Part shown: positions 36,501 to 39,500 of the stretch, piece after piece
How the letters are laid out: each line of letters opens with the position of its first letter
Position numbering within the stretch: the stretch's first letter is position 1
Assembly (NCBI GenBank): GCA_009760855.2
Contig: WPIO01000009.1
Coordinates: 62,001-126,000, forward strand
Direction: 5' to 3'
Source: Cristatella mucedo
Lineage: Eukaryota > Bryozoa > Phylactolaemata > Cristatellidae
DNA length: 64,000 nucleotides
Position numbers and translations under genes: made by a program
The notes under the pieces: model-generated
What the model was told of the DNA's origin: nothing
What the model saw: only the letters and a program-made list of their open reading frames with translations
Database searches by the model: none

Positions 36501-39500
36501 ACATCCGCACATGGATGGCAGCACATTTTCTAAAACTAAACGATGACAAAACTAACTTACTAGTTATGGGCAAACCGAGTGTGATTCAGAGATTGGAAAG
36601 GCTGTCTCTCAAAATTGGCTCTGCCAGCATATCTCCTGTCGAATCAGCTCGAAATCTAGGTGTCATATTCCAATGCGACCTCTCGTTAGACGACCATATC
36701 AGCTCCACAGTCAAGTATGCCTACTTTCAGCTTCACAACATTGCTAAAATTCGGGCTTGTTTAGATAAGGATACCACGTCTAAGTTGGTCCATGCATTCG
36801 TGACATCCCGACTTGTCTTCTGTAACTCACTGCTTGCTGGCCTACCGGCATGTGCAATCAGGCGATTGCAGCTGGTGCAAAACTCCGCAGCCAGGCTTGT
36901 CTGTCGTGAGCATCGCAGTTGCCACATCACACCCCTTCTCGCCGACCTGCACCGTCTACCAGTCAAGCAACGGATTTACTTCAAGGTTTTGTCGCTCACT
37001 TTTAGGTCCCTTCATTCTATGGCTCCAGCCTATCTCTCCGACATACTCCCCCATCAGGCCAAGCATCGTACCACCCGCTTTTCGGAATCCAACAGTCTAC
37101 AAATACCTCGTACAAACCTTAAATCCTTTGGAGACCGTGCATTTAGTTTGTATGCTCCCACAGCCTGGAACTCCCTCCCGACCTGCGTCATATTATACAT
37201 AGAACATCCCCTGACCTGACCACATTTAAAAGGAACTTAAAAAACTCACCTATTTAGGACAGCCTTTAGTGGGTCCCTGTGATTCTTCCTTCACGTGCTT
37301 TTGCGTGCTGACACTGTGCATGCTGCCACTAACCACATTTGCATGCTGACCCTGTGCATGTCACCCCAAACCATGTTATTCATTTTGTCTGTTTTTCAAG
37401 CATGATTTTACTTAACATTCAATTGCATTTCCCTTTGCAGCAAATGTAAAGCGCCTAGAAAGAGATAAAGTTCTCTGAGGGCGCTTAATCAAGTACATTA
37501 TTATTATTATTTCCAAATGCGATCCTCAACCTCCACTGAGCCTTCCAATTTGTTTGCTTTGAAGCTCTGTCTTAATCTCAGTAGGTGATAAAATATAATT
37601 ATATAATTCATTTGTATAGCGCCCCAAGAGAACTTAATCTCTATTCAGGCGCTTCACATATGCCTCGGGGCTCGAGCCCACGACCTCAGCCAGACCTTAG
37701 TTGGGGCGAGCACCTTAACCGCTGGACCAACCCAGCTCGGATAACCAAGCATAGGAAAATTACAACTGTGCCGGGTGTACCAATCTACCTCTGATTCATC
37801 TTTGTGATCTCGGCTAACATGTATGTGCGAAATTCGTACGACCTACATCAACTTCGTAAAAGTTGACGCCCTGAATAACTCAGCTTCAGCTGATTTCAGA
37901 GTACATCTAGATCACTACCAAAGCAAATTGCCAAAGATAGAAACAGAGACAGATAAACCGGCATAAGTTTAGTGTAAGACAAGTGAAGTGAAGATTAGCT
38001 GATTAGACAGTCTCAATTATATGGCAGCAGAAGAGCCTTAATGGCTATTGCTACTGCTTTCAATGGGCAAAAGGATTTCCCACTGCAGAACTCGAACCCA
38101 CGACCTGAATCGTGAATTCCTTATCTCTGGGCTAAGACCGAGGGCTTCTGACCTCATCAGAGGTCGGCTGGATAGTCAACAGGCTTGTCATAAACATTCT
38201 TCTTTCAGTCTTTTGCATCAAAAGACCAATGTAATCAGTCTCCTAGCCAATTAATTGAGCTCCTGTAGCAACATTAATTGGTTCGGGATCTCAGATCTAC
38301 CCCTAAAAACCTGCTCACTACACAATAACTGCACGCAAAACCGTAGGCGACATGGCTCGGGCGCCTCAAGCTATGGCATGCCTCTGATCCCGCACGGCGG
38401 TTGGGCAGGCACGGGCATGATTGAACATGCCAGCTGCCTGCCTGTTCAGTTCTCTCTCCACGACTAGCCATCCTTACCTAAACTCGGTGATCTCATCCAC
38501 GGGCCTCACATCGACCGCTTCATTTCTATCCTTTCAAAACAGAAAGCTATATCAAGTAAACGCTCGAGTCGTGTTCCCAGCACAGCGAGTGGACAGCTTT
38601 GCACTCGATGTGAGCCACGGACGATTTTGCCAATGGCAGAAAGGTGGAGCTGCTCGGAGGCTCGTGAGTCGTGCTCCAAAGCCAATGCCAACATCCCTGC
38701 CGATAATGGACATTTAGTGCAAGGGGGGGGGGGGCACGTTTACCACAACGATTTCAATCATTTGTTGAGGCTCCACCACTGCAAGCCAAGGCCAAACCTC
38801 AGGTGCTGATTACGATGCGTACATGTTATCAGTACTAAGTGGCATTTAAGTAATCGACAGCATGCTAGGCAACAGCTATGGTAAACAAATCGGTGCACAA
38901 GGCTCAAGGATTCTAGGGACTGACCGATGAAGCCAAAAATGCAAAACTCATCACATTGCACGTGGGGTTCAGCACTGCAGGCATGATATCCAATGTGCAT
39001 CTGTAAACAAGTACTTCGAGGAAATCAGGCAAGTTTAAACGAACTCCACAAGTTAAATGAGTTCAGACAGAGCACATAATCAAACTTTGGAATTTTGAAC
39101 CTGAAAAGGCATAAGGATAAAGTGCTTAAAATCCTTGGGGGTGATATGGTACCAGTCAAGAGTGGTTAAGATGCTCAAGGTTTGGCCGAGGTCATGAGAT
39201 CGAGCCCTATGGCATTTATGAAGTGCCTGAATAGGGATTAAGTTCTCTTAGGGTGCTATACGAATGAATGAATTATTTATTTCTTATAAGAGTAATTGGA
39301 GAGGACTAAAGTGAGGATGGCAGTACATGCAGAGATCACAAGTAATGGGAAGTCTTTAAAGAGGAAAGAAAAGCTGAATACCAGACACCCTTAGTTTTTA
39401 CTTTGTGTTGGTCGAGAACCCAGACGAACGCAATGCATCCCGTGTCCTTACACCCTGAGCTTGGGATCATCAGACGAACGCAATACATCCAGTGTCCTTA

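Follow-up and report, generated by a model that had tools for sequence, protein, structure and literature searches.

The locus at positions 37,440-37,743 of the window (the whole 64-kb stretch of DNA analysed here) raises the question of whether a LINE and a SINE that lie there side by side, each ending in a similar 3′ hairpin, are partners in retrotransposition, or whether the resemblance arose in some other way. Copies from many sites show that the tail is shared by homology, which is well supported, and we consider it probable that SINE A is a tRNA-like head joined to an ancestral LINE A hairpin, and that the LINE A enzyme copies this SINE in trans. The elements at the locus are the following:

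36077..37216, plus strand: LINE A copy, reverse transcriptase (RT) fragment with an RVT_1 match, 380 aa from stop to stop
37217..37440, plus strand: LINE A 3′ UTR, 224 bp from the RT end to the tail
37441..37497, plus strand: LINE A 3′ hairpin tail (T21) with a TTTATCAAGT-type end, here TTAATCAAGT, then (ATT)n to about 37513
37602..37740, minus strand: SINE A copy of about 139 nt (tRNA-like head and tail)
37663..37740, minus strand: SINE A head with A-box-like and B-box-like words
37606..37662, minus strand: SINE A 3′ hairpin tail (T07) with a TATACAAATGAATTATA end

Both tails fold into the outer and inner stems that a sequence-only reading of the window had described (z -4.83 and -5.12; 0 of 200 shuffles equal). 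Because the LINE tail and the SINE adjoin here, the shared tail could be ascribed to chance or nested SINE insertion at LINE ends, with no fixed fusion, and nested cases do occur: T66, one of 18 tails classed by a SINE head in the upstream 250 bp, is itself LINE-type. As an account of the tail, however, nesting has next to no probability, as the two tails at this locus are separate insertions in opposite orientation (LINE plus, SINE minus), and the junction of head and tail is the same in 20 SINE copies at 20 other sites; this constancy refutes chance SINE insertion, which the sequence-only reading had itself named as the danger to its proposal, as the general origin.

The analysed sample consisted of the window and 18 nuclear pieces of 10 kb (244 kb in total), the latter picked at round coordinates on contigs C1-C166 and so spread, yet not a random draw; the genome (572,011,866 bases in 688 contigs) was searched for exact tail words. 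The 16-mer AGAGATTAAGTTCTCT has 25 matches in the window at up to 3 mismatches, where 0.49 are expected; over the 572 Mb genome it is matched without mismatch 27,242 times, and a backwards control 0 times. A tail profile, seeded with tails from the same material as was searched, matched 97 places in the 244 kb at E ≤0.05 and none in the reversed sample; distinct tails are slightly fewer than 97, since T91 and T95 are antisense readings of other tails, and among the matches T86 and T94 are one element found twice and T96 sits at a locus end. Extrapolated genome-wide, the tail would amount to about 0.2 million matches. Upstream of the 97 lie a LINE UTR in 50 cases, a SINE head in 18, neither in 29 and both in 0, as sorted with a LINE UTR model itself made from 27 of the same tails. 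The window accounts for 13 LINE tails, 7 SINE tails and 7 of neither class, among which T91 is a SINE tail read antisense and the others (T33, T48, T50, T57, T78, T88) are LINE-like by eye to a varying degree. The earlier count of about 19 LINE A and 7 SINE A tails per 64 kb is thereby reproduced (13 plus 6 LINE-like; 7 SINE).

The window also holds three exon-like ORFs on the minus strand (54069-54572, 27802-28764 and 24605-25174), which we take to resemble a mitochondrial elongation factor G-type GTPase. Elsewhere in the assembly, contig C688 (loci L015 and L016) is a 21-kb mitochondrial contig with repeated blocks and long open frames under the invertebrate code; it carries one ORF in two identical copies, at 11632-11919 and 13747-14034, with a further, inverted copy at 3078-3365; a second nd3-like ORF, matching in part, lies at 12729-12965. 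Partial COX1 matches on C166, C83, C549 and C299 may be mitochondrial DNA copied into the nucleus.

SINE A is about 138 nt long, and its tRNA-like head directly abuts a tail of ~60 nt. In the 20 copies from 20 sites, which were drawn from those matching the window copy best and are therefore young by selection, the build is constant, with about 78 nt of head followed by GCATATGTGAAGCGCC... to ATACAAATGAATTATA. The head carries TGGTCCAGCGG and GGGCTCGAGCCC, which we take, by eye, to be A-box-like and B-box-like words, respectively. ARAGORN found 0 tRNA genes in the window and Rfam gave no match at E up to 5 on five young SINE A copies, and a tRNA origin of the head is thus not supported by either program. 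Evidence for target-site duplications is marginal, the words being short (the longest common word averages 4.48 vs 4.11, with 8 of 200 re-pairings as high). The other SINE A tails of the window are these:

16907..16963, minus strand: SINE A tail (T45)
39213..39269, plus strand: SINE A tail (T38)
43106..43162, minus strand: SINE A tail (T75), decayed
48865..48921, minus strand: SINE A tail (T23)
49176..49232, plus strand: SINE A tail (T62)
58271..58327, plus strand: SINE A tail (T54), with an extra spacer between the head boxes

In the last copy, as in T75 and three copies outside the window (L102, L112 and L121), the A-box-like and B-box-like words lie about 20-30 nt farther apart, and copies with this longer spacer apparently form an older subfamily. 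A separate Rfam match at 37450-37653, to MIR2606, straddles the two inverted tails and was rejected (E 0.38; 33.5 bits, where the gathering score is 139.7); two further sub-threshold matches located elsewhere (E 0.095 and 0.79) were taken as chance.

The LINE A ORF of the window matches RVT_1 at E 1.8e-19, and the match for an endonuclease, to Exo_endo_phos, is weak (E 0.0048, under the curated cut-off). A same-strand tail follows within 700 bp of the RT end in 26 of 40 LINE A-like fragments scanned, at 218-240 bp in 17 of those 26; in all, 48 fragments extend into the 3′ part of the query, 8 of them in loci unscanned for tails, and some fragments are pieces of one element. Further copies and tails in the window include:

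17384..18797, minus strand: second LINE A copy (RT 17712-18797, tail 17384-17440)
58741..60292, minus strand: third LINE A copy (RT pieces 59018-60292, tail 58741-58797)
47458..47514, plus strand: old-type LINE tail (T37), CATATGTAAAG...TATAAAAAT
10135..10191, plus strand: old-type LINE tail (T18), TATACAAAT

The sequence-only reading had given TATACAAA as the LINE A end, which the copy at 37,441 does not bear out: it ends in GGCGCTTAATCAAGTAC(ATT)n, or TTAATCAAGT, while TATACAAA is typical of more diverged LINE copies, and the earlier consensus had mixed LINE subfamilies. Upstream of this copy (34303-35700, plus strand) are frame pieces that resemble a broken Tc1/mariner-type transposase; a Pfam search of 34303-34809 gave no match. 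The sample also contains a second LINE, with an RT about 39-51% identical to that of LINE A, a different 3′ end and, in some copies, TACATT-like repeats; the UTR of some copies has GCGCTATACAAAA, resembling the old LINE A and SINE tails. Its RT loci are:

L019, 1116-2200, minus strand: second-LINE RT
L030, 3382-4370, plus strand: second-LINE RT
L033, 3163-4251, plus strand: second-LINE RT
L027, 6454-6753, minus strand: second-LINE RT

LINE A tails fall into three main end types, TATACAAAT, TATATCAAACG and TTTATCAAGT. From GCATATGT onward, the SINE consensus tail is identical to the old LINE consensus at 54 of 61 positions and to the middle and young LINE consensuses at 51 of 61 each, where the middle tail (here, in the folds and in the p 0.009 comparison below) is the 12-copy y4 consensus with TTCTCT, the 4-copy consensus having TTCTTT. 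Ages were taken as CpG-masked K2P to the best consensus (of the 97 tails, 22 aligned over <60 positions and 2 were skipped). The LINE medians are 0.182 for TATACAAAT (n=20, minimum 0.122), a value inflated by a heterogeneous consensus, 0.112 for y4 (n=11), 0.096 for TATATCAAACG (n=3), 0.063 for TTTATCAAGT (n=10), 0.035 for y2 (n=7) and 0.023 for y1 (n=5). For the main SINE group the median is 0.100 (n=14), and the three copies nearest the young SINE consensus stand at 0.017, 0.191 and 0.222. The first 68 exact-hairpin matches on contig C1 comprise 48 LINE-like copies, 0 of them with the TATACAAAT end, and 20 SINE copies (median K2P 0.082); a further SINE set, picked by its identity with the window copy, has a median of 0.017. 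With medians of 0.10, 0.082 and, in that selected set, 0.017, the SINE overlaps in age with LINE copies at 0.01-0.11, those ending TTTATCAAGT included, despite its best tail match being to an older subfamily. The single tail earlier attributed to both families is homologous between them, from copies at many sites, but the SINE has the edges of the older LINE subfamily and mostly goes without (ATT)n.

The LINE-type TATACAAAT 23-mer, TTCTCTGAGGGCGCTATACAAAT, occurs 194 times in the genome. Among the first 20 copies listed, K2P ranges over 0.060-0.213 and exceeds 0.10 in 17 of 20 (for two of the remaining three, the alignment spans only some 70 positions), and no two copies are closer than a p-distance of 0.143, so these 20 give no sign of a young TATACAAAT LINE burst. 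It is conceivable, and we put it forward tentatively, that the SINE, which retains the edges of a subfamily with no young copies seen here and mostly has another 3′ terminus, has outlived its donor LINE subfamily and is still copied by a descendant LINE, the core hairpin alone being enough in trans without the flanking helix or the terminal repeat.

Those same edges, along with the internal loops of the SINE (TGAAT, TTGG), match no young LINE here, as might be expected if SINE A were moved by a different, unsampled L2-type LINE still ending TATACAAAT, with LINE A merely a relative of the true partner; LINEs with an RT at the second LINE's distance (about 39-51% identity) do exist in the sample. 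The SINE-like hairpin behind TGTAAA, with 219 occurrences, bears on this in both directions: among 20 fetched copies, most of them chosen because of unusual letters, 19 have a SINE head or resemble SINEs by eye, whereas one (L060) has a non-SINE, LINE-like end. Considering also that TTCTCTGAGGGCGCTATACAAAT is found only 194 times, with no young burst among the first 20 listed, and that the TATACAAAT end is absent from all 48 LINE-like copies on contig C1 noted above, we judge a different partner unlikely, although a rare active donor LINE with the edges of the SINE is possible. L060 itself lacks a SINE head, and joins a SINE-like hairpin flank (TACAT...TTTG) to a ACAAAACGACC end; it is possibly a relative of the tail donor.

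The (ATT)n end that had been assigned to the LINE is indeed usual there: a run of (ATT)4+ follows the tail in 41 of 48 LINE copies (1 not anchored), and in 24 of 50 in the unselected sample (20 not anchored). On the SINE it is rare, with 0 of 20 copies (3 not anchored), 0 of 21 in the young set and 0 of 17 in the unselected sample (1 not anchored), and a single exception outside the counted sets (L067) that does end in such a run. The SINE is also without the TTTATCAAGT of the young LINE. The loop, earlier given as TTAAGT, varies with subfamily, mostly among TTAAGT, TTGAGT and TTTAGT, and is TAAAGT in the copy at 37,440-37,743. Within the young SINE set, 14 copies have the loop TTTAGT at K2P 0.008 and 6 have TTAAGT at 0.029, an order partly built in by a reference consensus that is itself mostly TTTAGT. 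Intact TTTAGT 24-mers occur 348 times in SINE-type and 244 times in LINE-type form, and 20 of the LINE-type copies, taken in listing order, are scattered over subfamilies (median K2P 0.067, lowest well-aligned value 0.029); TTTAGT, the loop of the youngest SINE subfamily, was not seen as the consensus loop of any LINE subfamily here.

Consensus tails of the old LINE, the young LINE and the SINE fold at z -4.7 to -6.0, and that of the TATATCAAACG LINE at z -2.0, a value equalled by 7 of 200 shuffles. The old LINE and SINE consensuses each form a single extended hairpin whose helices, separated by mismatches, are GCAU/AUGU (SINE CAU/AUG), UGUA/UACA (SINE UGUG/UACA), AGCGCCU/GGGCGCU and AGAGA/UCUCU, and the span of this hairpin is also that of SINE/old LINE homology; the young LINE pairs UAAA/UUUA instead, and the middle LINE retains the core only. 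The GCGCC/GGCGC outer stem of the sequence-only reading is present, but it can run longer. Comparison of the subfamily consensuses shows a single variable column among the 24 in stems (at a CpG site) and 8 among the 22 elsewhere (Fisher p 0.009); adding the 4-copy TATATCAAACG consensus as printed gives 2 of 24 against 8 of 22 (p 0.032). This contrast is weakened because stems change less in decayed copies too (CpG-masked rate 0.070, against 0.101 in other columns), and part of the conservation may reflect ascertainment or subfamily mixing.

Compensatory stem substitutions, which had been suggested as a check on the fold, were not above shuffles: over 69 tails, 3 pairs changed on both sides against a shuffled mean of 3.3, and the stem covariation score of 0.125 (0.115 shuffled) was reached in 49 of 500 shuffles. 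Covariation was accordingly rejected as proof of structure. Its absence, and the slower decay of stems in dead copies as well, would fit a tail that is homologous but whose hairpin plays no part in copying, the enzyme reading sequence and not structure. We regard this as rather improbable, as the stem columns are steadier among the consensuses than the loop, the internal loops and the flanks, the linker of the enzyme has the spacing of a tail-binding region, and L2 LINEs assayed in cells are reported, in the part of the source available, to require the stem-loop (PMC4176376).

That spacing was seen in two LINE A copies (L032 and L029), the former located as follows:

L032, 5081-6676, minus strand: 531-aa frame with the endonuclease-reverse transcriptase (EN-RT) linker

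Both linkers have W followed by K+6, K/R+9, R+13, E+16, K+17, F/Y+19 and K+20; K379, R383, R387 and K390 of ZfL2-1 and W344 of ZfL2-2, which would be the matching positions in a gapless alignment, are reported as necessary for stem-loop binding in the available part of that work (PMC4176376). A strict pattern, composed post hoc once the linker was known, has 2 matches in the 244 kb, both of them the LINE A copies, and 0 in 20 block shuffles. An earlier pattern nearer the zebrafish motif (with P ahead of the aromatic and W at +19) has 0 matches in the sample, and a looser one of W plus four basic residues has 4, of which 2 are unrelated, against a shuffle mean of 0.6. The RT and the tail-binding-region spacing, the latter found post hoc, support a putative L2/CR1-type enzyme.

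The simplest mechanism, as far as sequence can indicate, would be that the LINE A lineage copies the SINE in trans through the core hairpin. SINE A would have gained its 3′ hairpin from an ancestral LINE A of the TATACAAAT subfamily, most likely via template switching, and the LINE A enzyme would since then have mobilised it in trans. Through its tail-binding region, which lies between the endonuclease and the reverse transcriptase, this enzyme would bind the core hairpin in LINE or SINE RNA alike (AGCGCCU/GGGCGCU plus AGAGA/UCUCU, with the loop UUAAGU), and this grip would lead to the start of target-primed reverse transcription. In this scheme, RNA binding, mobilisation in trans and the template-switch origin are steps that we infer. 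Because the tail is shared, the RT and the tail are linked, and the linker of two copies has tail-binding spacing, LINE A and SINE A are, on sequence grounds, best classed as a stringent-type LINE/SINE pair, a known kind of parasitism.

Tail-sharing SINE/LINE pairs are known, a survey of 58 SINEs being cited in the available part of one source (PMC3747384), and a SINE with the tail of an L2-type LINE is parasitism of a described kind (PMC3747384; PMC2653535, as available in part); in open-licence literature, a description of the present pair was not evident. UnaL2/UnaSINE1 of eel likewise combines an L2-type LINE and a SINE through a common 3′ stem-loop, and copying by UnaL2 of RNA with the SINE tail is cited as shown by assay, but the UnaL2 loop is given as GGAUA (PMC2653535 and PMC4176376, in part), whereas the loop here has 6 nt, is of the UUAAGU type and caps an AGAGA/UCUCU stem. 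HAmo SINE/HAmo LINE2 of carp also unites a tRNA-headed SINE with an L2 LINE hairpin tail, there of about 42 bp. As the accessible part of that report has it, the HAmo tails are the same but for one base and have a TAAATG terminal repeat in common (PMC2653535), whereas here the SINE consensus departs at 7 of 61 positions from even the best-matching LINE subfamily, an old one. A common 3′-terminal short repeat of the HAmo kind, which does not by itself define such pairs, is with few exceptions absent from the SINE A end. ZfL2-1 and ZfL2-2 of zebrafish resemble LINE A in the cTBR residue spacing of the EN-RT linker and in a 3′ stem-loop built of two stems, lower and upper; LINE A differs in having F or Y at +19, where zebrafish has W, in that P does not directly precede the first W, and in its SINE partner, none being described for the zebrafish elements in the part of the source available (PMC4176376). 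Among molluscs, the Nin-SINE of limpets and the V-, Deu- and Meta-type SINEs of bivalves are reported to have tRNA-related heads, but SINE A, at about 138 nt, has no room for a central domain, the Lottia Nin-SINE being given as 369 bp (PMC11121367 and PMC10294476, in part). What is less usual here is that two elements which multiplied in overlapping periods have tails that diverged beyond the core hairpin and at the terminus. The pair is abundant, with several LINE subfamilies of differing age alongside the SINE, and since the edges and ends of the SINE and LINE tails changed independently while the core hairpin stayed constant, it offers a natural experiment for learning what portions of the tail are required by an L2-type enzyme.
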